Below are positions 2,580-49,701 of a DNA stretch of 64,000 nt, piece after piece. This DNA is from Halichondria panicea (lineage: Eukaryota > Porifera > Demospongiae > Suberitida > Halichondriidae): the NCBI RefSeq assembly GCF_963675165.1, contig NC_087382.1, positions 3,635,963 to 3,699,962 of the forward strand. Reading direction: 5' to 3'. The position numbers and the translations under genes were made by a program. Under the pieces are notes generated by a model. It saw only the letters and a list, made by a program, of their open reading frames with translations, made no database searches and had not been told where the DNA came from. Position 1 is the first letter of the stretch. The number at the start of each line of letters is the position of its first letter.

Positions 2580-4697
2580 ATGACAAGGCAAAGAAGGTAG
2601 CCTCACAGGCACAAGCAGACGCTCGCTGGATCATAAGAAACACAAAGCCTTGTCCACACTGCAGGTACGTTGGAATAGAGTATAGAATCAATAGAACAAT
2701 AATATTTAGAGTTACTGTACATAATTATACGTTTCATTGTTGTCTGATTTCATATTTCCTTATAGAGCTCCAATTCAGAAGAACGACGGATGCAATCACA
2801 TGCCTTGTAAACAGGTACGGGCTTAACATAATTATTAGACTGGAAACAGCTGCACCTAGTTCATCTTTTGTTGCCTCTAGTGTCGCCATGATTTCTGCTG
2901 GGTGTGTCTTGATCCATGGAATCTACATAACCATAGAACTGGCGGATACTTTACGTAAGTCGTACATTGCCAATATACATTCAAAAACGCTCTTACAACT
3001 GATTGTCATCTATAGCTAGCTATGTGTACTAGTTTTGCTGTTCTCATAACTTTTTCAGTTCATATTTCACACAAATGTCACAAATGATATGGGCAACAGA
3101 TATCAATCTTGTCTATTGACCTAGCTCCCTCCTTTTCCTTCGTAGTGTGAATCGGTACCGTTGCAGTTTTAATTAAATACTTTTTTAGAGGCCATTCCAT
3201 GAAATTCAGTTGTCTATTGACCACCCTCCCCTTTGTAGCTTTAACCGGTTCACTGCTCACGAGAAGGCCAACACGACAGTGGAGAGGTCCAGAGGAGACA
3301 TGGAGGCTGCCTATGTTAAGAAAGCTACAGAGGACCTTCAGTCGCACACTAAGAGATTCCAGCATTATTATGACAGATACAACAATCATCTACACAGTCT
3401 GGATGTAAGTGGTGGAGCGGGAAAAATCTCTAGACAATTCTAGCAAGTTTAGTTTAGCTAGTTTTGAGTGCCCATAACTTGACTTTGGAAGGTCCAATTT
3501 CATGTAGGATGTGTTCTGTAGCTCTAAGAGAGGTCTATTTATCAAAATGGGGTGTGTTTAAATCATGTAGGCTAATTTTTTTCTCCTTGTCAGATTGAAA
3601 TGAAGTTGCTTCCAGAGTCTACTGGTAAGATGAGAGAACTGGAAAGACTCGGACTGGCTCTCGACAAGAAAGGTACGATGTTTGTGCATGTGCATTTATT
3701 ATAATAGCTGCTTAGTAATATTGAAATATGACCTTAATTTGGAAGTTCGTACTGTACATATAATACTACATATTTTTCTTTATAGTGGCTCGGGTCAAAG
3801 GTCAACCTGATGCCACCATTGGGGTGAACTCTCCTCTCACTCCACAAAAGAAAATCAGTGTTTTCACAACTGGAGAAGCGAAAAACTTTCTCGACAATAT
3901 TTTCCGAATTCTGCTGAGAGCGAGGAGAATCCTGTCAGCCTCGTATTGCATGGATACTTCATCCCTGATACAGATGAGGAGGCCCTGGGGGCACATGAAG
4001 TATTGCAGGTGAGGGCAGGTGGCTAATCGTGACAGCAGATTATGGTGTATGGAGAAATAGTGAAGTATTTCTTTAAACGATCACAACTTAAATGTTTATC
4101 TACTTGCGCGAAGTATTCTATTTTGGTAGAATTTACTACGTGTACCATTGCATTGTCGAGTGTAGCAGCGTTGTCTAACAGCCTACTGTATTTGGTATGT
4201 CACTTTCCAACACACACTCACACACACACACGCACACCCACACACACACACACTCACACACACACGCACACCCACACACACACACACCCCACACCCCTCA
4301 GGGCAAACTAGAGGAAGCAGTGGAGGTTGTCTCGGAGATGGTCAATAGACAATACCTCCAAACACCACGCTCTAAAATGAACGAAGCCGCTGGAAACGTC
4401 GACTACCTTTGCAGCGAATATCTCACCGAAATGTCCGTGGTCGCGACAATCGCCGATCTGGCAGTAAAAGAAGCGGAAAAGCCTCCACCTCCACGTGCCA
4501 CCCCGCCCACTCCACGGAAGGACAGCCCGCCCCCTCGTATGGGGGTGATTCCCCTCGGCTTTGGACCAGACGTTCCCGACCAACCGGATGGAGAGAGGCG
4601 CTTCCGTTTGATTGGTCTATTGAATCCCGACGGAACGTTGCATATTTTACGAGTACCAGAAGAGGAGTTTCAATTTCTTAGGGCCCCAGCAGACTAA
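2580..4697 (+). pseudogene. ANKIB1: ANKIB1-type RBR E3 ligase 3' fragment (copy 1)
   Basis: Seven exons: 2580-2664, 2766-2814, 2881-2954, 3239-3404, 3594-3672, 3786-4008 and 4302-4697. They encode the RING2 (Rcat) domain (CPHC, then DGCNHM-PCKQ and CRHDFCWVC with the catalytic Cys region), the TGGYF linker, and a helical Ariadne-type region with NRQYLQTPRSK that resembles human ANKIB1. In that family RING2 forms a thioester with ubiquitin. The ankyrin, RING1 and IBR exons are absent: the fragment starts directly after the APEX1 remnant. Copy-specific damage: one base lost in exon 6 after SASYC (near 3950), a Cys-to-Phe change at the start of 3239-3404, and Thr-to-Pro beside the catalytic Cys. 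The Pro-rich tail (4480-4697) is still open and ends in TAA. Confidence 0.8.
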
Positions 4698-5381
4698 TTA
4701 GCGTTATGTGAATGTACTTGTGAACTACATGTATATAATAATTATGAGTATTCTGTTCAACAATTTAGCTGTGTGTGTGTATTTATAAACATGTTATTTT
4801 TCATGTTGTTTGCACAGTCGTCATTAATATTTTGTTATTAATTAAAAGGCACCTCTGCCCCGAAGCAGCCATTGTGATCAAACTCTGCAGATCCACCCCC
4901 TTTCTATGGTTCGTAACATGCCGACTGTTTCATATTTTAAAGACAGAATAATCACTATTATTTATGATAATAATTATGCTAGACTAGCCAATTAGCGTTA
5001 ATTGCAATGGTATCTCATACCCCCCCCCCCCCACTCAAATATATACCCGAAGCATTTGAACACTAAAAAGCTAGCTGCAAACAAAGCACTGCATGTCAGT
5101 CGTCACTAGCCTGTTTTACCATAATATTATAGTTAGAGAACAGGCATTTTTAGATGTCTGATAATACCCCCTGCATGTACATGTACCCTATGATTTATTC
5201 ATGAACATGCATGCAGTCACATGTGTAATGGAATTCCCCTTACACACAATAGAGGGTGTGTCTGGCATGTCTATGGTGAGGGTATTCATATCATTCCAAG
5301 AATACCAGCTAGTGAATATAATCAGTGAACCAATTCTCTGCAGTCTACACACATATCTGAGTTCCTAGCAGAAACTATAAT
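4698..5381. other. Spacer between ANKIB1 remnant and ROC-COR gene
   Basis: AT-rich DNA with a C-run at about 5020 that varies between copies. It must contain the promoter and 5' UTR of the downstream gene, but I see no clear TATA box or conserved element. Confidence 0.4.
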
Positions 5382-8300
5382 ATGGGACAGGAACAGTCTG
5401 CTGAGTAAGTGATGGTCTTACAGCCTAACATTTTTATTGCTTTTAAACAGGAAACAGGCCAAGGAGTTATTGAATGCTGCTGAGAATGGCAATGTAAGCA
5501 AAGTGAAGTCCCTGCTGGCACGTGGGGCCAACCCCAACCACCCCGAGTGCTATCCATTACACACTGCTTGTAGGAATGGTCACCTGGAGATAGTGAAGGC
5601 ACTTGTTGAGGCTGGGGCAGACACTGAGAAATGGAATGATTGGGGCATGTCTCCTGTTGGTTGTGCAGCCATGAAAGGTCATAAGGAGGTGTTGGTTTAC
5701 TTGATCAGGGATTGCAAGTGCAGCGCTTGTGAGTAGTTTTCCATTCACTAGCAGTTGCTACATAACTCCCCCGGCCAACCCTATATATAGCAATTTTTCA
5801 CATTGCAAATATTTTTGTGGGACTTTAATATCAGTTTAATTTGTAATGAATACGGAATACATGCATGGCTTGGGCTTCTTAATTTTGAATGAGTTGGTTA
5901 TGTACACGAACTATGCGTTCGAGGCCTTGAGGGCCTGGCTTAGGGATGGACATTTAGTTCCTTACAAATGCACCAGTCCTGTAATATTTAAATATTAGTG
6001 ATACCAACATTCACTTGTGTATAGATACCAGGGACCAGAACAACGATACTCCACTCCACGATGCATGCCAGTATGGTCACCTAGGTGTGGTGCAGTACTT
6101 GGTGGAGGAGGCCCACTGTGACATCAGTGAGTGTATCATAATTTTGTCTGTCCTTGTGTACAAATTTGTTGTTATGAACACTTTCAGATCTACGGAACAA
6201 CTTCAACCAGACTGTACTTCATACAGCCTGTCACTACCTACTTATAATTGGTGAGTCGAAGTAATTAGAGATTATAGTAACTACATAGCCCTAAAAGTAC
6301 TTGTTTGTAACAAACCAGAAATAAGAGTATATGCATGTAATAGATATAGCATGGGAGACCGAGTGTTTTATGAAATATACAGGTACAAGCATAAGGGTGA
6401 AGCTCCGAGGGCGAGTTGCTTGCATATTTCAATAAAACACGAGGATTCTCATGCTATAATATTATGCAGGACGACCCCTTACCAAAACGTGTAATAAGAA
6501 CACGGAAGGAACTGTATGACTTTTATTACATCCTTGTAACCGATATAAAATTATAAGATCCTTACAATACAGTGCATGTATTATTATAACCAACTGCATT
6601 CCCGTTCAATACTGTAACTTTAGATACGATATGGACGCTTTCCGGTAAGCTTGCAGTGGTGAAGTACTTGGTTGAGAAGGCTAACTGTGACATCAGTGAG
6701 TTTATTTAAATGTAATGTGTATACAATCTCTTGACCATTAACATGCACATCCAGATGCAACTGATAAGCGAGGCAAGACACCACTTGACTTAGCTAGTGG
6801 TTACGAGGACATTGTTGACTACCTCAAGACTCGACAGGAATCATCTAGACAATCAGGCAAGTTATGAAAAAACATTTCACCGGCATCCTAAATAATTGGC
6901 ATAGCTATACATTATAAAGAAATTAGTGATGTGCATAATGTTATGTTTATACGACTCAACAACTGTTACTCATGGCAACCAGTCACGACGTTATGAACAT
7001 ATTTAACCGAAATTGTTATCAAGAGGAATTCCTAGTAAATTGTTATCTGAGTACATTTTCCTCAATGAAGTAAAAAATGTCATGCCAGCAAAGGCTTCGC
7101 CATGCATACAGTAATTATAACTATACTTTACCATAGCTATATATAATTTTATAGTCAGTCACATTTACTTCCTTGTACATTCATGCAGGAAAAGATGGTG
7201 TTGGGAGTCAAACAGCTGTTCCACTCACACAAGACGAGGCTGATGCTCTGCAGAAGCTTCTCGAGGGAGCACAAGTCACCATTGGTCATCCCATTGTTGC
7301 TGGCACAACCACTCTGGAGGATGTTCAGCAGCTGCTTACTCAGAGAGGACTGGAGATTATGGCCAACGACCTCAGGACAAGACTCAGACTAAGTAAGCTT
7401 AAAATTACTATTTTTAGTGCTTATCACATGATCTCCAGTCAATCAGTTTAGCTTAAAGTAGTCACACGACCGTGATTTGTAATCTCCACACTTAATTGAT
7501 TACTTGCCGAATGGTTCTCGCTAAAATTTCAATGTTTGTTATTTTTCATATGATCAAAGTAACTTAATCTCTACTAATTTCTCCATAATTATAGTTATGA
7601 CTGAGCAACAAAGAAACCTCGAGATACTCAACAATCTAATGACAGATGAAGACACTATCGATGTTTGCTACCCAAGGCTATTTCTTGTTGGGCCGCCATC
7701 TGTTGGCAAGACGACCACACTCAATCGACTGCTGGGGGAGTTTGAGAACATTGACTCTGCTGGAGACAAAGCCAAGCTTAGAAGCACACTGCTTGCTAAC
7801 TGCAAACAAATACTTGCCTTCGTTAATGAAAACACAGCAAAATGGTTGTCATCCAAAGATGTTGACGAAGAAACAAAGCTGTTGTTTGGCTACTTGCGTG
7901 AATCTAAGTCTGAAACCACTCCTAACAAAAAGAGAAGCATCGCAACCTCAACCGATTCTCCTGTATTAATACCCAAGCAAAAAACTCGATCTAGACATCC
8001 CACAAAAGGGTTTCCGAAAGAAAGCAGATCACCACTACACCAAGCCACAGCTACTCAGCGTACAACAATAAGTCAACCAAGAAGCAAACTACTACCAATA
8101 AAATCAAAATTACAACAGCTAATAAAGAATGCTGACTATTCCAAAATGGCCGATTTCCTTGGCGATATTTTACTGAACATTCACGACATCGGAGGTCAGC
8201 CAGGCTTTTTGGAAATGCTACCAGCCCTGAGCACTGGTCCGGCCATGTATCTAGTGTTCTTAGATCTCAGTAAGGAACTTGACAAGCTGTACAAAATACC

Positions 8301-11026
8301 TTTCAGTCGAGATGGTATGGAAATTATTCCCTTCAATTCTGTTCACACTACAGAAGCCACAATCTCTCAAATCCTCACCTCTATTGCCAGTGTCCATTGC
8401 ATCTCAAGAGATCCCACTCCTCTTATTGATGTTGGCAGAGCTAGTGATGCTCTTAAAGAAAGAATTAAAACATTTAAACAAGTTAAACCGGTAGCAGCCT
8501 TGATAGGCACACACAAAGACAAGCTGACCGACCCCGAGAGACAAATCAGCGAGAAAAATGAGGCACTTACAAAAGTTATCAATAAATTCCCCGAAATTAT
8601 TATTTCTCCAAGATCAAAACAGCAGAATATTGAGCACAGCGAACCTATAGACGGAGCCCATACACAATCAGGTTCAAAATCTTGTTTCTTCTCAGTAGAT
8701 AACCTCAATGGAACTGAAGTGTCTGACATCGGCCCCGTTCGTAATTTCTTAAGTCGAATAATTTTGTCTCGCTTCAAAAATGCTTCTCTTCCGATTCGAC
8801 CGAAATGGCTCATTTTTGGGTTGCTTCTTCGAAAACAATTTCAAATAGCTACAATTGAAGATTGCTTTGAATTAGGAGAAATGCTAGAAATGCAGAAAGA
8901 AGAAGTAAAAGTGTGTCTCTGGTATCTTCACAATTGTGTTGGTACGATCCTCCATTACACCAACGTACCTGGTGATGACGGTTGGCTCAAGGGTCACGTG
9001 ATCTGCACTCTTCAAGCTATCTTTGATAGTATCAGCCAGTTTATTCTTCTTTCTATGCGAACGCTTCACTCAGGAGGTCCAGTTACCGACTACGAGCAAG
9101 CCGAGTTGGTTAAGAAGGGACAGTTCTCGATCAAATCCATTGAGATGTGTTGCAGAAACGTGGAAATGTCTGAACTTATTCCCGCAAAGCATCTCATTAA
9201 GTTATTGGAGCACGTCAAACTTCTGTCCCCGATATCTCATAAGGATAAATCATCAGTGGAAGTTGTTCGCACTACCTACTTAATGCCGGCTGTTTTGGAA
9301 TGTGCTTCACAAGAGGAGCTGGCGAACCCACCTCCATCAGACACCAATAACCCAGAACCACTCCACATCACGTTCAGCTTTGGTTACGTACCAACAGGAG
9401 TCTTCTGTGGGCTCATCACTCGACTAGTTTCCCAAGGCCGCCATGGAATACTCGGATTGACGTGGGAGTTGGTGGAAGATGGTGTCAAGAGAAACTGCGT
9501 CTCTTTTCTGATTGCGAAATCAAATAAGATAACGTTAATATCGCATGAAAGAAGTTACGAAATACGAGTTACTCGAAATCACGCCCGTCTCTCCCTGCAC
9601 GACCTTTGCACCTATGTTCTCTCGGTAGTTCTCTACACTCTCACGAGCATGTACGAGCAGCTAGTCCCACAAGTGGCGTTCCAGTGCCCATGTCCTGGTC
9701 ACAGCTCAAGCAGAGATCACAATTCCTTGTGTATTCTGACAGAAGATGTATGGATTCAGTTTCTGTGTGGCAGTAATCCCGTTACCTTGAGGAAGGAGCA
9801 GACAGTTTGGCTTGGAAAGGTGTGTGTACAGTTAGCGTACGTAGAATTATGTTCATGTGTTCTTGCATAATGTTTCCATTCATTCTACAGACCAAGAAGG
9901 TTGGTGAGGAAACTAAACTAGAGGTGCTAAAGTTTTCTAAGGATAGTTTCTCCTTTCACTGGATTAAAGAGGGTCAGATCAAGACAACTGATGATCGGCC
10001 CAACACTCTGAGTTTCCCGAGTGTGAGAGAGGAGGACTTTGGTCACTACCAGTGTGAGGTGAAGGATACAGCTGCTGGGAAAGTGCTCCTCACTGTCTAC
10101 AGAGCTCTCTACAAAGAGAAGACAAGTCAGTTAACTGAGTATGATTAAGGATGTACTTACTTTTAACATCACATTTACTTTAGATGAAATCTCTACTAAA
10201 AGGAATGAAGAGCCAAAAAGCTATGACACTACCAGTACATCTATTGTAAAGATGCCATCATCAGGTTTGATTGTTTCTACGAACTGTTCGACAAACACTG
10301 TTGTTCACTGATCACTCCTATATAGATGAGGGGTCCCTGTCATCAGAAAGGCTCAAACCCTCAGCAGATCCAGTCCAGAGAGTTGGAACTACATCAGCTG
10401 GTGAAGACAATCAAGTCTGTACTAGAATATTAGGTATATTTCCTGAAGTAGCTATGTATGTATGTATGGTTATTTAATGTCTGTCCCTCTACAGGATCAC
10501 CTGCTAATCAAGTCGCTCTCCAAGAACTAATGAGGCGATACAATCTGACTGACGAGCAACTCAACCGTGAAATAGTGGACTCCGATACTCCCATAATGGC
10601 CTTAAATTTTGATGATGTGGAAATGTATTCAACTACAATGAAACTAGCTATTGCTGAACAAGCTGACGTAAAGAGGTTGAACAATAGCGAAGGAAGTCGA
10701 GCAGCCATGATGAAGTGCCTGCAAGTCTGGAAAGAACGTGATCCTTTTCAAGCAACTTACAGAGCTCTACTGGATATCGCACTGAGATTGGGGAAAGGAG
10801 AAACAGCTGATAAAATCTGTCGGCAATTGTCCCAACGTAAGTACATGTGTATCAGTGACCCTCCCCCTTTTCCTCTCCCCTCTAGAAAGCAACGAGTATA
10901 GCTATCCAAACAGTTTGACTGCAATCACACCTTCTATATAATTAATTTTTACAAAACACCTGCATACATAATTATATACCGTGATTATTTCCACTTTTCC
11001 TGATTGCAGATCGTACACTGGACTGA
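5382..11026 (+). CDS. ANK-ROC-COR-Ig-death protein, copy 1
   Basis: Exons: 5382-5404, 5451-5728, 6025-6126, 6188-6250, 6624-6695, 6755-6856, 7189-7392, 7595-9819, 9891-10125, 10184-10264, 10326-10433, 10495-10836, 11010-11026. They join in one frame of 1283 residues. Residues ~8-215 are ankyrin repeats (protein-binding sensor). The exon 7595-9819 holds a ROC GTPase: P-loop GPPSVGKT (~314), DIGGQP (~479), THKD (~587), with a basic Ser/Thr-rich insert between the first two. A COR dimerisation domain follows from ~680. Exon 9 is an Ig-like fold (FHWIKEG, then DFGHYQCEV); the usual B-strand Cys is absent. Exon 12 is death-like (W..RD..QATYRALLDIALRLGKGETADKI). The order recalls DAPK1 without its kinase and with an added Ig module. 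The N-terminus MGQEQS fits N-myristoylation. The intron after 6856 uses a GC donor. I infer an intracellular signalling or innate-immune scaffold. Confidence 0.9.
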
Positions 11027-11640: not shown

Positions 11641-14600
11641 TTACCATGCCAACACGCTGTGTGCTAGCATGCCTAAAACATGTTTCAGTGTGAAATTGTT
11701 CTTTTCCACTCTCAACGGAATTTTGTAGTCCCACAGTTCCGATGCTGTAACCATGGGAATGGTTTCTATAACAACCACAGGGGATTGATATTCTTTCCAA
11801 TTCTGCGATGGTTGCCCGGAAATATCGATATTTGGGTCGTTATGACGAAAGTGCTCCTTAGGTCCAATGTAGTTAGTTTCTATTTCACGATCAGGTTGCT
11901 CTACACGAGGATATTGAGGGATAGTGGGGTTAAAATATCCGTGGTCGGAGGTCAAATTCCAATTATCTTGTCTATTAATTTTAGCGTTAACTCTTGTAGC
12001 ATTCGAAATGACGTCTTTGGTAGCTGCATCGATACGAGGGTTAAACTGATTATTTCGAGCCTGCTGCTCGTCAGGATGAATTAATAAAGAGACCAGAGGG
12101 TTAAATTGTTCCAGAGACGAAATAGCGTTTGAGTGGTTGTCAGGGGTCAAAAGTTCAGGCAATGTAAGAACAGCTGTTAGATTGAATAACAAAAACAGTC
12201 CAGGGTCCAAATATCCGTTGCTAAGCACGTTGCTAGGCACGTTGCTTGGTTCGTTTGATGTGATATTCAAGATCTCTGATTTGCGGGAAATTTCTTCAGT
12301 TTGAATTTTTGGATATTCATCAAAAATGGGGTGTCCAAAATCGTTCTTAGTTATAGATTTTAGTGAGGAATTTTCAGGAAGATTTTTCTTTGGATCGGAA
12401 CTCGAAAAAGTTTTCAGTAATGGCTTCAAATTTGACAGATCAGGTGGTAGCTTTGAGTGGTTGTTAAACGAAACAGGTGGGGTCGCTTGGGGGTCAAAAA
12501 TGGCCACGTTCGTAGAGAGTTCGTTGGAGAGGTCGTTTCCGAGAGACATCAGGGGACAAAGGTCGTTGCCAGGTGGTGTGGGGGTGGAGGCAAAGAGGGT
12601 AGCAACACACATCAGATAGAGCAGAGCACTTCCACAGGCAACCTGGAGTGTGGGAGTTATTGTGATGATCTTTACCACACAAACAAAAATGCTAACAGCT
12701 AAGTCAAAATTATTTTGTAGGTATGATGATCTTTACTCGAATAAATCAAGTATGATGGTCGAATAAATCAAAGTATGGACGGGTATTTTTGAGGGTATAA
12801 ACTTTCGCAGATTTAATATAATTTTCACCGGAATAGCAGCCTTGTTGCAGCATGCAATATTAGATTCGCGGGTGCATGCTTAATCGGTGAAAACCACAAA
12901 CATAAAATTAATTATACCCTCGAAATATCCCGTTATACGGTAATTACGGCCAAAATATGGTTATGTAACATTGCGATGGAAACACATTATTTTTTATGGT
13001 ATGTACGTAGCTTCGTTACTATACCTTAGCAGTGGTCTTGGAGGTGGTGGCCATGTTATCTGACGCCCCCCACACAGCGCAAAGGTCAGTGTACGAGAAC
13101 CACCCCCTCTGACACGCCTCGTTAAGTGCAACTCTGTGAGTGGGCGGGACAAATAGCAATGGTAGCAATAAATTTAATACAGAATAATTGTTACCTACTT
13201 CACTTCTCACACACCACCCACACACTCCACACACACCACCCACACCCACACACACGTACCTCCCTTCCACACTTCTGACAAACTGGTAATACTCATCCAT
13301 AGATACGAACAGCCTCCAATCCTGCACGATAAAACAACAGCAGATCACATGACACAAGCTCGCATACCCATTGGTCCATCAAACTACAAGTGCAACTTAT
13401 GACAAGCCATATACATGTAGATCATTCTCTTTCTATGCTTTTAGAAAATCAAAACATAAATTTTTTGAATTTGATACTAAAGTTATGGCTGTTCAACTAC
13501 CCCCTGCCCCTCCCCCTCTTCCAGCTGCCATAACTCGAATTCCGTGGATCCAATTTCAACGATTTTATGGAAAGAGACCTTTCAAATAGTGTCCTCAAAA
13601 TTCATATTTGAGAGATAAAAATATTCGCCAATTTGGCCGTACCATGGTCCAAGGCCAAAAAATGACAAATTATGGCTCCGATGAAATTTTGGATTTAGAA
13701 AGGTCTCTTTCTTAGCTTTCAGAAAATCATAACATATTTGAAATTGGATCAACGGTACTCAAGTTATGGCAGCTGGAAGATTACACCCCCCCCCCCCCCC
13801 CTCCGCTTATCATCTCTTTTTCTCTGTACACTCTAATGTGAAATTCATTTGATGTACTTATTGAATTAGTATTTGTAAAGATGATCATGTCATAATAACG
13901 AATGTTTCACATTTCTCTCCCAGATGCACGCATGCTATTGCTAAGTAACAGCGCTAGTTATAGTGATAAAAGATTAAGAATTAGAGACCACACAAAGAAA
14001 AGAATTCAATGAAAGAATATAGCAAAATGTTAATAATTGGGTAGTTTATTTTACACATCTGCCGTACACGTACGTGTTGCCAGGCAACAATCCCACTGTG
14101 GAAATCAGTATAATAATTTGCAACATGTTTTCAAACAAACGTCAACATAACGAAAGGATTTCACACATTAAAAATGTGATTTGAATATTTGAATTGAGAG
14201 GAATATGAAGTTATGCGCAAGGCTTAAGGCAAAAACACGGAAATAACAAGTCATAAATAGTAATAATGATCAAAGAAAACGCATTTTATTGATCCTTGAG
14301 CAGCCGTATATGTAGCAGTCTACACACACACACACACAACGCATTGATTTTCTACATAAAAGCTTAAAAAAGCAAGCAAAAGCCAAGAAGCTTGAACTTG
14401 CAAGGACACGCACACACACACACACACACTACCGTATGCGCACACAGAAGCATAACAACACAAGCTCCAGTATAAACGTATCGCATGTCCTGTACATGTA
14501 TTTAGCTTCAGATAGAGAATGAACCACCACGACTGAATAAAGAATTTTTCTTAATGGGTAAGAATGCCACAATAAAATAAATACAGGAGTGTTGTGATAG

Positions 14601-25883: not shown

Positions 25884-28800
25884 ATGGGACAGGAACAGTC
25901 CAAAAGTATGGGACAGGAACAGTCTGCTGAGTAAGTGATCGTCTTACAGCCTAACATTTTTATTGCTTTTAAACAGGAAACAGGCCAAGGAGTTATTGAA
26001 TGCTGCTGAGAATGGCAATGTAAGCAAAGTGAAGTCCCTGCTGGCACGTGGGGCCAACCCTAACTACCCCAAGTACTATCTATTACACATTGCTTGTCGT
26101 AATGGTAACCTGGAGATAGTGAAGGCACTTGTTGAGGCTGGAGCAGACACTGGGAGATGGGATGGTTTGGGCAGGTCTCCAGTTCATTATGCAGCCTTGT
26201 GGGGTCATAAGGAGGTGTTGGTTTACTTGATCAGGGATTGCAAGTGCAGCGCTGGTGAGTAGTTTTCCATTCACTAGCAGTTGCTACATAACTCCCCCGG
26301 CCAACCCTATATATAGCAATTTTTCACATTGCAAATATTTTTGTGGGACTTTAATATCAGTTTAATTTGTAACGAATACGGAATACATGCATGGCTTGGG
26401 CTTCTTAATTTTGAATGAGTTGGTTATGTACACGAACTATGCGTTCGAGGCCTTGAGGGCCTGGCTTAGGGATGGACATTTAGTTCCTTACAAATGCACC
26501 AGTCCTGTAATATTTAAATATTAGTGATACCAACATTCACTTGTGTATAGATACCAGGGGCAATGACAATGATACTCTACTCCACGATGCATGCTTCCGT
26601 GGTCACCTAGATGTGGTGCAGTACTTGGTGGAGGAGGCCCACTGTGACATCAGTGAGTGTATCATAATTTTGTCTGTCCCTGTGTACATATTGTTATTAT
26701 GAACACTTTCAGATGTACGGAACAACTACAACCAGACTGTACTTCATGCAGCCTGCTACAGTAACATCCTATTTATAATTGGTGAGTCGAAGTAATTAGA
26801 GATTATAGTAACTACATAGCCCTAAAAGTACTTGTTTGTAACAAACCAGAAATAAGAGTATATGCATGTAATAGATATAGCATGGGAGACCGAGTGTTTT
26901 ATGGAATATACATGTACAAGCACAAGGGTGAAGCTCCGAGGGCGAGTTGCTTGTATATTTCAATAAAACACGAGGATTCTCCTGCTATAATATTATGCAG
27001 GACGACCCCTTACCAAAACGTGTAATAAGAACACGGAAGGAACTGTATGACTTTTATTACATCCTTGTAACCTATATAAAATTATAAGATCCTTACAATA
27101 CAGTGCATGTATTATTATAACCAACTGCATTCCCGTTCAATATTGTAACTTTAGGTACGACATATTCCGGTTACCTTGAAATGGTGCAGTACTTGGTTGA
27201 GAAGGCTAACTGTGACATCAGTGAGTTTATTTAAATGTAATGTGTATACAATCTCTTGACCATTAACACATGTATGCAGATGCAACCGATGATGAAGGCA
27301 GAACACCCCTTGACATAATTAAAGGGAGGAGTGGTTGCGAGGACATTGTTGACTACCTCAAGACTCGACAAGAATCATCTAGACAACCAGGCAAGTTATG
27401 AAAAAACATTTCACCAGCATCCTAAATAATTGACATAGCTATACATTATAAAGAGATTAGTGATGTGCATAATGTTATGTTTACACGACTCAACAACTGT
27501 TACTCATGGCAACCAGGCACGACGTTATGAACATATTTAACCGAAATTGTTATCACGAGGAATTCCTAGTAAATTGTTATCTGAGTACATTTTCCTCAAT
27601 GAAGTAAAAAATGTCATGCCAGCAAAGGCTTCGCCATGCATACAGTAATTATAACTATACTTTACCATAGCTATATATAATTTTATAGTCAGTCACATTT
27701 ACTTCCTTGTACATTCATGCAGGAATAGATGGTGTTGGGAGTCAAATAGCTGTTCCACTCACACAAGACGAGGCTGATGCTCTGCAGAAGCTTCTCGAGG
27801 GAGCACAAGTCAACATTGGTCATCCCATTGTTGCTGGCACCACCACTCTGGAGGAAGTTCAGCAGCTGCTTACTCAGAGAGGACTGGAGATTATGGCCGA
27901 CGACCTCAGGACAAGACTCAGACTAAGTAAGCTTAAAATTACTATTTTTAGTGCTTATCACATGATCTCCAGTCCATCAGTTTAGCTTAAAGTAGTCACA
28001 CGACCGTGATTTGTAATCTCCACACTTAACTGATTACTTGCCGAATGGTTCTCGCTAAAATTTCAATGTTTGTTATTTTTCATATGATCAAAGTAACTTA
28101 ATCTCTACTAATTTCTCCATAATTATAGTTATGACTGAGCAACAAAGAAACCTCGAGATACTCAACAATCTAATGACAGATGAAGACACTATCGATGTTT
28201 GCTACCCAAGGCTATTTCTTGTTGGGCCGCCATCTGTTGGCAAGACGACCACACTCAATCGACTGCTGGGGGAGTTTGAGAACATTGACTCTGCTGGAGA
28301 CAAAGCCAAGCTTAGAAGCACACTGCTTGCTAACTGCAAACAAATACTTGCCTTCGTTAATGAAAACACAGCAAAATGGTTGTCATCTAAAGATGTTGAC
28401 GAAGAAACAAAGCTGTTGTTTGGCTACTTGCGTGAATCTAAGTCTGAAACCACTCCTAACAAAAAGAGAAGCATCGCAACCTCAACCGATTCTCCTGTAT
28501 TAATACCCAAGCAAAAAACTCGATCTAGACATCCCACAAAAGGGTTTCCGAAAAAAAGCAGATCACCACTACACCAAGCCACAGCTACTCAGCGTACAAC
28601 AATAAGTCAACCAAGAAGCAAACTACTACCAATAAAATCAAAATTACAACAGCTAATAAAGAATGCTGACTATTCCAAAATGGCCGATTTCCTTGGCGAT
28701 ATTTTACTGAACATTCACGACATCGGAGGTCAGCCAGGCTTTTTGGAAATGCTACCAGCCCTGAGCACTGGTCCGGCCATGTATCTAGTGTTCTTAGATC

Positions 28801-31536
28801 TCAGTAAGGAACTTGACAAGCTGTACAAAATACCTTTCAGTCGAGATGGTATGGAAATTATTCCCTTCAATTCTGTTCACACTACAGAAGCCACAATCTC
28901 TCAAATCCTCACCTCTATTGCCAGTGTCCATTGCATCTCAAGAGATCCCACTCCTCTTATTGATGTTGGCAGAGCTAGTGATGCTCTTAAAGAAAGAATT
29001 AAAACATTTAAACAAGTTAAACCGGTAGCAGCCTTGATAGGCACACACAAAGACAAGCTGACCGACCCCGAGAGACAAATCAGCGAGAAAAATGAGGCAC
29101 TTACAAAAGTTATCAATAAATTCCCCGAAATTATTATTTCTCCAAGATCAAAACAGCAGAATATTGAGCACAGCGAACCTATAGACGGAGCCCATACACA
29201 ATCAGGTTCAAAATCTTGTTTCTTCTCAGTAGATAACCTCAATGGAACTGAAGTGTCTGACATCGGCCCCGTTCGTAATTTCTTAAGTCGAATAATTTTG
29301 TCTCGCTTCAAAAATGCTTCTCTTCCGATTCGACCGAAATGGCTCATTTTTGGGTTGCTTCTTCGAAAACAATTTCAAATAGCTACAATTGAAGATTGCT
29401 TTGAATTAGGAGAAATGCTAGAAATGCAGAAAGAAGAAGTAAAAGTGTGTCTCTGGTATCTTCACAATTGTGTTGGTACGATCCTCCATTACACCAACGT
29501 ACCTGGTGATGACGGTTGGCTCAAGGGTCACGTGATCTGCACTCTTCAAGCTATCTTTGATAGTATCAGCCAGTTTATTCTTCTTTCTATGCGAACGCTT
29601 CACTCAGGAGGTCCAGTTACCGACTACGAGCAAGCCGAGTTGGTTAAGAAGGGACAGTTCTCGATCAAATCCATTGAGATGTGTTGCAGAAACGTGGAAA
29701 TGTCTGAACTTATTCCCGCAAAGCATCTCATTAAGTTATTGGAGCACGTCAAACTTCTGTCCCCGATATCTCATAAGGATAAATCATCAGTGGAAGTTGT
29801 TCGCACTACCTACTTAATGCCGGCTGTTTTGGAATGTGCTTCACAAGAGGAGCTGGCGAACCCACCTCCATCAGACACCAATAACCCAGAACCACTCCAC
29901 ATCACGTTCAGCTTTGGTTACGTACCAACAGGAGTCTTCTGTGGGCTCATCACTCGACTAGTTTCCCAAGGCCGCCATGGAATACTCGGATTGACGTGGG
30001 AGTTGGTGGAAGATGGTGTCAAGAGAAACTGCGTCTCTTTTCTGATTGCGAAATCAAATAAGATAACGTTAATATCGCATGAAAGAAGTTACGAAATACG
30101 AGTTACTCGAAATCACGCCCGTCTCTCCCTGCACGACCTTTGCACCTATGTTCTCTCGGTAGTTCTCTACACTCTCACGAGCATGTACGAGCAGCTAGTC
30201 CCACAAGTGGCGTTCCAGTGCCCATGTCCTGGTCACAGCTCAAGCAGAGATCACAATTCCTTGTGTATTCTGACAGAAGATGTATGGATTCAGTTTCTGT
30301 GTGGCAGTAATCCCGTTACCTTGAGGAAGGAGCAGACAGTTTGGCTTGGAAAGGTGTGTGTACAGTTAGCGTACGTAGAATTATGTTCATGTGTTCTTGC
30401 ATAATGTTTCCATTCATTCTACAGACCAAGAAGGTTGGTGAGGAAACTAAACTAGAGGTGCTAAAGTTTTCTAAGGATAGTTTCTCCTTTCACTGGATTA
30501 AAGAGGGTCAGATCAAGACAACTGATGATCGGCCCAACACTCTGAGTTTCCCGAGTGTGAGAGAGGAGGACTTTGGTCACTACCAGTGTGAGGTGAAGGA
30601 TACAGCTGCTGGGAAAGTGCTCCTCACTGTCTACAGAGCTCTCTACAAAGAGAAGACAAGTCAGTTAACTGAGTATGATTAAGGATGTACTTACTTTTAA
30701 CATCACATTTACTTTAGATGAAATCTCTACTAAAAGGAATGAAGAGCCAAAAAGCTATGACACTACCAGTACATCTATTGTAAAGATGCCATCATCAGGT
30801 TTGATTGTTTCTACGAACTGTTCGACAAACACTGTTGTTCACTGATCACTCCTATATAGATGAGGGGTCCCTGTCATCAGAAAGGCTCCAATACTCAGCA
30901 GATCCAGTCCAGAGAGTTGGAACTACATCAGCTGGTGAAGACAATCAAGTCTGTACTAGAATATTAGGTATATTTCCTGAAGTAGCTATGTATGTATGCA
31001 TGGTTTTAATGTCTGTCCCTCTACAGGACCACACTCTAATCAAGTCGCTCTACAAGAACTAATGAGGCGATACAATCTGACTGACGAGCAGCTCAACCGT
31101 GAAATAGTGGACTCCGATACTCCCGTAATGGCCTTACATTTTGATGATGTGGAAATGTATTCAATTGCAATGGGGCTAGCTATTGCTGAACAAGCCGATG
31201 TGAAAGAATCACGTGGAAATCAAGCAGCCATGTTGAAGTGCCTGCAAGTCTGGAAAGAACGTGATCCTTTTCAAGCAACTTACAGAGCTCTACTGGATAT
31301 CGTACTGAGATTGGGGAAAGGAGAAACAGCTGATAAAATCTGTCAGCAATTGTCCCAACGTAAGTACATGTGTATCAGTGACCCTCCCCCTTTTCCTCTC
31401 CCCTCTAGAAAGCAACGAGTATAGCTATCCAAACAGTTTGACTGCAATCACACCTTCTATATAATTAATTTTTACAAAACACCTGCATACATAATTATTT
31501 CCACTTTTCCTGATTGCAGATCGTACACTGGACTGA
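25884..31536 (+). CDS. ANK-ROC-COR-Ig-death protein, copy 2
   Basis: Exons: 25884-25930, 25977-26254, 26551-26652, 26713-26781, 27155-27220, 27280-27390, 27723-27926, 28129-30353, 30425-30659, 30718-30798, 30860-30967, 31027-31359, 31520-31536; 1291 residues in one frame. A 24-bp in-frame duplication gives two MGQEQS starts (25884 and 25908); the second gives 1283 residues. The ROC-COR exon is almost identical to copy 1: I see one residue change (Glu to Lys in the basic insert). The ankyrin exons and the first two thirds of the death-like exon differ strongly, including in-frame length changes in exons 4, 5, 6 and 12. All splice sites, including the GC donor after 27390, are kept. An intact frame in both copies argues that both are functional. 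Confidence 0.9.
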
Positions 31537-49501: not shown

Positions 49502-49701
49502 NNNNNNNNNNNNNNNNNNNNNNNNNNNNNNNNNNNNNNNNNNNNNNNNNNNNNNNNNNNNNNNNNNNNNNNNNNNNNNNNNNNNNNNNNNNNNNNNNNN
49601 NNNNNNNNNNNNNNNNNNNNNNNNNNNNNNNNNNNNNNNNNNNNNNNNNNNNNNNNNNNNNNNNNNNNNNNNNNNNNNNNNNNNNNNNNNNNNNNNNNNN
49701 N
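49502..49701. other. Scaffold gap, 200 N
   Basis: Exactly 200 N, so probably a fixed-size placeholder. It interrupts the 5' part of the Wnt gene. Confidence 1.

Follow-up and report, generated by a model that had tools for sequence, protein, structure and literature searches.

Analysis of a 64,000-nucleotide window (C6:3635963-3699962, in a genome of 131 Mb and 39 contigs) revealed what, judging from the sequence, is likely to be a tandem gene family whose proteins join ankyrin repeats to a Roc-like GTPase, an Ig-like and a Death-like region, with the ankyrin face under diversifying selection and the copies exchanging segments. Our comparisons demonstrate strong diversifying selection on the ankyrin binding face, at a few codons per repeat, and show little divergence among copies in the ankyrin scaffold codons and the GTPase or in the introns and the linker exon. 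The predicted ankyrin-GTPase-Ig-Death-like proteins are probably recognition receptors.

The gene model of the copy examined most closely, copy A, was built from splice borders and the reading frame, the joining of the exons being predicted. On the plus strand, it places in order exon 1 with the start codon, five ankyrin exons (5451-6856), a linker, the GTPase (from 7595), the Ig-like and the Death-like region. Exon 1 (5344-5404), recognized by its AG/GT borders, its frame and the start pattern shared by all copies, contains the 5' UTR and an ATG at 5384, from which the predicted protein begins MGQEQSAE. Exon 2 (5451-5728) encodes the ankyrin N-cap and repeats 1-2, and exon 3 (6025-6126) encodes repeat 3; both are hypervariable by the codon table and the M2a fits, with Pfam and AlphaFold2 further supporting the former and splice borders the latter. 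Between them lies intron 2 (5729-6024). Repeat 4 is divided between exon 4 (6188-6250), which holds its first half and has a hypervariable end with in-frame length changes, and exon 5 (6624-6695), which holds its second half and has a hypervariable start. Exon 6 (6755-6856; borders, codon table and M2a) encodes repeat 5 or the C-cap and uses a GC donor, while the linker, exon 7 (7189-7392; borders and codon table), is conserved at 94-99.5% identity across the 15 other close copies. The GTPase exon (7595-9870), the Ig-like region (9777-10145) and the Death-like region (10452-10898) are open frames, where the 3' end of the first, the start of the second and the borders of the third represent open-frame limits only. 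The encoded protein certainly contains ankyrin repeats: exon 2 matched five Pfam ankyrin models above the cut-off, and AlphaFold2 modeled it as an ankyrin fold of three helix pairs with a pLDDT of 92.6. The best PDB match by sequence is a DARPin (6mol).

A tandem duplication of ~20.5 kb contains a second copy, copy B, whose exon 2 (25977-26254, plus strand) and exon 3 (26551-26652, plus strand) were identified by direct comparison and share the AG/GT borders of copy A. The original prediction had estimated by eye about 25 differences in the 278 bases of exon 2, about 12 in the 102 bases of exon 3 and a single one in the 296-base intron between them. Direct comparison at an offset of 20526 returned exactly these numbers, namely 25/278 (5451-5728 vs 25977-26254), 12/102 (6025-6126 vs 26551-26652) and 1/296 (5729-6024 vs 26255-26550), and chance was excluded for exon 2 against the intron (Fisher p 1.3e-7). 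In the 276-base codon core of exon 2, Nei-Gojobori counting gave 19 nonsynonymous and 5 synonymous differences, and the 25th falls within a split codon; the estimate that roughly 20 of them change amino acids was thus right, and the exon changes are not mostly synonymous. The proposed ~30-fold excess of exon over intron divergence, on the other hand, holds against the quietest intron only. When all six introns were pooled (24/1166 bases, 2.1%) and compared with the five ankyrin exons (67/611 bases, 11.0%), divergence was still unequal, with a ratio of 5.3 (bootstrap 3.4-8.8). Across the 20-kb A/B duplication, 28.5% of 824 stretches of 296 bases contain no more than one difference, so that a near-identical intron is ordinary here and it is the exons that stand out. 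Taken alone, this pair gives a dN of 0.094 and a dS of 0.087 in exon 2, and 0.148 and 0.076 in exon 3; since dN is close to dS in exon 2, the pair by itself is no proof of selection.

A DNA search with positions 5401-6900 showed that the gene recurs farther upstream in the same orientation. Close copies carrying both exon 2 and exon 7, numbering at least 16, lie on one strand at C6 3.402-3.664 Mb (~260 kb), accompanied by four older copies at C6 3.349-3.377 Mb and one more on contig C5. Because copies A and B belong to an array of at least 16, the claim of exon divergence could be tested family-wide. Among these copies, the lengths of exons 2 to 6 differ by multiples of three, and repeat number varies, g3415 carrying a single additional exon-3 unit and g3593 two. 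There is a stop within an insert of exon 2 in g3540 and no GT after exon 4 in g3402, and g3475 and g3570 (C6 3477642-3477998 and 3572358-3572714) may be damaged or head-only copies, as their GTPase match extends over only the first 124 residues and falls in two frames. Just 5' of copy A, a 172-residue frame at 4179-4697 has 16 matches across the array and no match in a Pfam scan, and may represent the last exon of a neighboring gene that was duplicated with the unit. Downstream of copy A, a 363-residue open frame is located on the minus strand (11641-12732).

Across the family, the five ankyrin exons displayed a dN of 0.151 and a dS of 0.098 (bootstrap of the ratio 1.19-2.07), and exons 2 and 3 together gave a ratio of 1.92 (bootstrap 1.29-3.12). 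The linker exon gave 2.54, with a bootstrap range of 0.86-13.4 and rates of only 0.043/0.017. For these codon tests, we dropped the g3540 exon 2 and the g3402 exon 5, kept the extra exon-3 units of g3415 and g3593 out of the counts, and trimmed exon 5 of g3475 and g3502 to an inner AG. Site models were then compared for exons 2, 3, 6 and 7, leaving out exons 4 and 5, using our own implementation of M1a and M2a with fixed per-exon FastTree trees and several starting points. M2a was favored for exon 2 (2 delta lnL 154; ~17% of codons at omega 11.7), exon 3 (52.6; 34% of codons at omega 10.7) and exon 6 (23.4; 34% of codons at omega 4.9), and weakly for the linker exon (10; 11% of codons at omega 7.6, one site), within-exon recombination being a violation of the assumptions of this codon model. 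On these fits and the exon/intron comparison, neutral drift at one rate was rejected, as the original prediction had maintained. Its proposal that selection favors changed amino acids on the ankyrin surface, to be seen in dN/dS per exon, is supported by the 16-copy family and not by the pair of copies A and B.

The GTPase exon behaves differently and is under purifying selection: among the full frames of 8 copies, omega was 0.25-0.41 in 22/28 pairs with dS of at least 0.07, and the other six pairs, too similar to tell, gave 0.29, 0.32, 0.33, 0.49, 1.47 and, in one case, 4 nonsynonymous against 0 synonymous changes. Silent sites were also compared, using the 12/16 copies that were likewise used for the recombination tests (without g3517, g3593, g3415 and g3540). 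Divergence was 0.052 in the ankyrin exons (46 clean fourfold sites) vs 0.027 in the introns (1105 sites; permutation p 0.03). At about twice the intron level, part of the ankyrin excess must have a source other than amino-acid selection, and the doubling is compatible with a degree of linked or imported diversity. Among the introns of the family, intron 2 is the most conserved, with a pi of 0.012 against 0.025-0.064 for the other introns in the 12 copies (mean 0.025 for intron 2 in all 16); its conservation perhaps results from conversion or a regulatory element.

Four or more amino acids were found among copies at 39 codons, 38 of which lie within the ankyrin exons, and it is because these 38 hypervariable codons are fast that the ankyrin exons look fast. 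Pi at hypervariable codons reached 0.50 at first and second positions and 0.26 at third positions, compared with 0.03-0.04 at every position of codons that show no more than two amino acids. With the repeats numbered according to the ankyrin consensus, hypervariability was seen in 16/23 cases at positions 2, 3, 5, 13 and 14 and in 11/143 at all other positions (p 2.5e-10); adding position 10, a choice made after the data had been seen, gave 21/29 vs 6/137. Positions 2, 3, 5, 13 and 14, together with 33, are those we take to be randomized in DARPin libraries. At these contact codons, pi was 0.53 and 0.48 at first and second positions vs 0.24 at third positions, and the commonest residues were arginine, asparagine, tyrosine and tryptophan, while framework positions 8, 11, 12, 24, 27 and 28 scarcely vary. 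The mapping of variable residues onto an ankyrin model, suggested in the original prediction, was carried out with the AlphaFold2 model of exon 2, in which all 13 exon-2 sites with a posterior >0.95 occupy first helices (9 sites) or loops (4 sites) and none is found among the 28 second-helix residues. Positive selection is thus confined to the predicted binding face of the repeats. Nearly every copy carries its own set of contact residues in repeat 2 (15/15 copies distinct), repeat 3 (15/16) and repeat 1 (14/15), with fewer distinct sets in repeat 0 (12/15) and repeat 5 (8/16).

Downstream of the ankyrin repeats, the domain assignments are of graded strength. The GTPase exon contains P-loop, DIGGQ and THKD motifs seen by eye, and its best PDB profile matches are LRRK2 Roc chains (E 0.04); Pfam Roc scored 17.4-19.9 bits, below the cut-off of 27, in 4/4 copies scanned, and COR-A (14.3 bits, cut-off 35.3) and COR-B (16.0 bits, cut-off 27) appeared weakly but in the correct order in 1/4. 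We describe it as Roc-like. NCBIfam profiles gained nothing for the two GTPase exons searched, AlphaFold2 gave no usable model (pLDDT only 32), and one related GTPase frame showed a sub-threshold nSTAND3 match (E 0.02). The Ig-like region passes one Pfam cut-off (ig) and is conserved in related copies, and the Death-like region, conserved in relatives as well, matches Pfam Death below the cut-off (E 0.004 in copy A); its counterpart in copy B (30990-31421, plus strand) is 85% identical. The five scanned frames of copy A, of which 4179-4694 is the only upstream one, gave neither a NACHT nor an LRR match with E as high as 1, and no kinase match. The GTPase frame is open over at least 737 residues in 11 array matches among those listed, including A, B, g3436, g3448, g3402, g3606, g3559 and g3627. 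Genome-wide, the GTPase exon has no fewer than 67 matches (59 of 337 candidates scored, some genes giving two), on C1, C4, C6, C8, C10, C11, C13 and C14, and NACHT matches number at least 102 (102 of 265 candidates scored); as sequence matches, these point to large expansions of putative signaling NTPases. The assignment to an animal was based on the Ig-like and Death-like domains together with these NACHT matches; innexin profiles gave two weak matches.

The predicted protein start, placed in exon 1 directly 5' of the ankyrin repeats, reads MGxxxS in 16/16 copies, a pattern we take to be that of N-myristoylation. A unit MGQEQSKS is present in two tandem units in both copy B and g3448, and in three in g3502, where the last unit is varied. 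The retention of this pattern and the repetition of the unit suggest that N-myristoylation is selected, and it could thereby anchor the protein to membranes.

Taken together, we infer a cytosolic, possibly membrane-anchored receptor that binds through its ankyrin face and signals through its Death-like region. The ankyrin face would bind variable targets, the Roc-like GTPase would act as a switch, and the Death-like domain would recruit a cell-death or inflammatory output. In such a system, tandem duplication would be the source of copies, conversion would homogenize the remaining sequence and shuffle pieces, and selection would keep rewriting the contact residues. The most serious competitor, which we nevertheless consider unlikely, is that the proteins are fast-evolving non-immune adaptors whose ankyrin face co-evolves with expanded internal partners, for instance in development or gamete interaction. 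Ankyrin domains do bind proteins of all sorts; by analogy, however, the Death-like and GTPase domains, the tandem expansion and the turnover would be typical of immune or allorecognition genes, which favors the receptor reading.

A second explanation, raised in the original prediction as import from other paralogues, is that exon-sized tracts were imported by gene conversion from diverged paralogues or alleles, so that no amino-acid selection would be needed. Mosaic exchange among the copies is real. In the 12/16 copies, the PHI test rejected an absence of recombination (p 0.0005), 8/66 pairs share identical tracts longer than in 95% of shuffles, and pairwise distances show no correlation from one hypervariable block to another (rho -0.31 to 0.24). 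The GTPase exons of copy A and g3436, 205 kb apart, show zero silent differences while their exons 2 are just 87.7% identical, indicating that pieces travel between copies. Between copies A and B, only 4 of 2858 aligned bases differ at 7393-10250 vs 27927-30784, a stretch that includes the GTPase exon region of copy B (28131-30401, plus strand; 757 codons), which departs from that of copy A at 2 nucleotides; this stretch and the silent identity with g3436 have the appearance of a recent conversion or duplication tract. Further in favor of import, exon 6 of copy A (6755-6856) differs from that of g3570 by one substitution and one gap, A and B alone share an identical stretch over the initial 84 bases of exon 2, and both the exon-2 dS of this pair, as high as its dN, and the doubled silent divergence described above point the same way. 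Yet a comparison with the 15 other close copies turned up no close donor either for exon 2 of copy A after base 84 (best 8/106 and 9/88) or for exon 3 (best 7/102 differences), the two exons for which import had been proposed, and ready-made exon import as the sole cause was rejected on this ground. Import alone also leaves unexplained why dN exceeds dS family-wide, why change clusters at contact positions, and why silent diversity is unrelated to how far a site lies from the hypervariable codons (rho 0.006, p 0.83; 12 copies). Exchange accompanies selection on the ankyrin face; import is supported in part, and as a full replacement for selection it is quite improbable.

Targeted hypermutation that writes changes into the contact codons is less probable again, at a very low likelihood. 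Change is indeed very localized, with 2 or 3 bases altered per codon in 1190 and 384 of 4190 codon comparisons at hypervariable codons, and where such codons encode the same fourfold residue their third bases differ in 34/240 cases, above background, a figure that takes in the ends of exons 4 and 5 where length varies. A hypermutator would vary third bases too, however, and their variation is only half that of the other two positions (0.26 vs 0.50). At contact codons with the same fourfold residue, the third base differs in 7/111 cases only, near the level of ankyrin silent sites (0.052) and somewhat above that of introns (0.027). Hypermutation was rejected on this low third-base change, the 34/240 being partly contrary.

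An assembly artefact, in which alleles or haplotigs were laid in tandem, is just as hard to credit. The assembly derives from a single individual and the window contains a 200-N gap at 49502-49701. This gap lies outside copies A and B, the array comprises at least 16 copies that are distinct and have contact residues of their own, and A and B differ at 292/17,117 aligned bases (1.7%) outside the ankyrin region and yet are nearly identical over the GTPase stretch; it was on this divergence pattern, taken from the assembly sequence and not from reads, that the artefact was rejected as highly improbable. Least credible of all is relaxed constraint or pseudogene decay, for despite the damaged-looking g3540, g3402, g3475 and g3570 it was rejected on ankyrin exon lengths that shift in threes, long open GTPase frames and a GTPase omega of 0.25-0.41, with an ankyrin omega above 1, not 1, under M2a and retained scaffold residues likewise opposed to it.

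Assuming that the proteins are receptors, a broader reading can be put forward tentatively. In what would be an early-branching animal, possibly a sponge, the ankyrin-GTPase-Death genes might constitute an anticipatory, germline-encoded repertoire for non-self recognition or allorecognition, resembling a DARPin library, in which conversion would shuffle repeat faces and selection would rewrite the very positions that engineers randomize. If true, ankyrin repeats would be a third natural scaffold, beside LRRs and Ig domains, for diversified animal recognition, and nature and engineers would have picked identical residues. In many invertebrates, Death, NACHT and ankyrin genes are greatly expanded. 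Here, the candidate contact residues are specified down to the single codon, and binding, population variation and a link to immunity or graft rejection are thus directly testable.

Among known proteins, the human ROCO protein DAPK1 has the architecture kinase-ankyrin-Roc-COR-Death, and its order of ankyrin, Roc-like GTPase and Death is that predicted for the present family. In contrast to DAPK1, the family showed no kinase in the scanned frames and has its predicted start just 5' of the ankyrin exons, and it possesses an Ig-like domain, a tandem array and hypervariability. Possible relatives occur in sponges, where genes with ankyrin, Ig and Death domains are described as upregulated after microbial cues (PMC6208332), and where Amphimedon is reported to have a large Death/TRADD-N family whose members often end in ankyrin repeats (PMC8195603). 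In the literature searched (best matches, with few subscription journals or preprints), we found no hypervariable ankyrin faces in animal Roc-type proteins.

Closer parallels come from outside the animals. In Podospora anserina, the ankyrin repeats of NLR (STAND) proteins are described by Dyrka et al. 2014 (PMC4986451) as having about five positively selected positions that, one exception aside, lie on the concave surface, in the inner helices and the hairpin. As here, these fungal genes change repeat number and undergo exchange among members of the family; they likely serve non-self recognition. According to the same study (PMC4986451), they carry NACHT or NB-ARC domains with C-terminal repeats and were compared among alleles and repeats, whereas the animal family has N-terminal ankyrin exons, a Roc-like GTPase and Ig-like and Death-like regions, and was compared among tandem paralogues of one genome. 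The brown-algal LRR-ROCO genes, as Teng et al. 2024 (PMC11378527) describe them, are proposed receptors with N-terminal repeat exons under diversifying selection and exon shuffling, and resemble the present family, with its Roc-like GTPase, in uniting a Roc-type GTPase with diversifying N-terminal repeat exons. Their repeats are LRRs, each encoded by a 72-base exon, with alternative splicing, and LRR-ROC-COR is their sole architecture (PMC11378527), while the present family has ankyrin repeats, exons of several sizes and an Ig-like and Death-like tail. It is possible, though doubtful, that the DARPin-like repertoire is an animal counterpart of both, independently reached. Finally, the paratope positions randomized in DARPins (PMC3602593, PMC8683736) coincide with the natural hypervariable positions found here, the residues of PMC3602593 having been mapped to repeat positions in this analysis; DARPins are engineered libraries, unlike this natural family.
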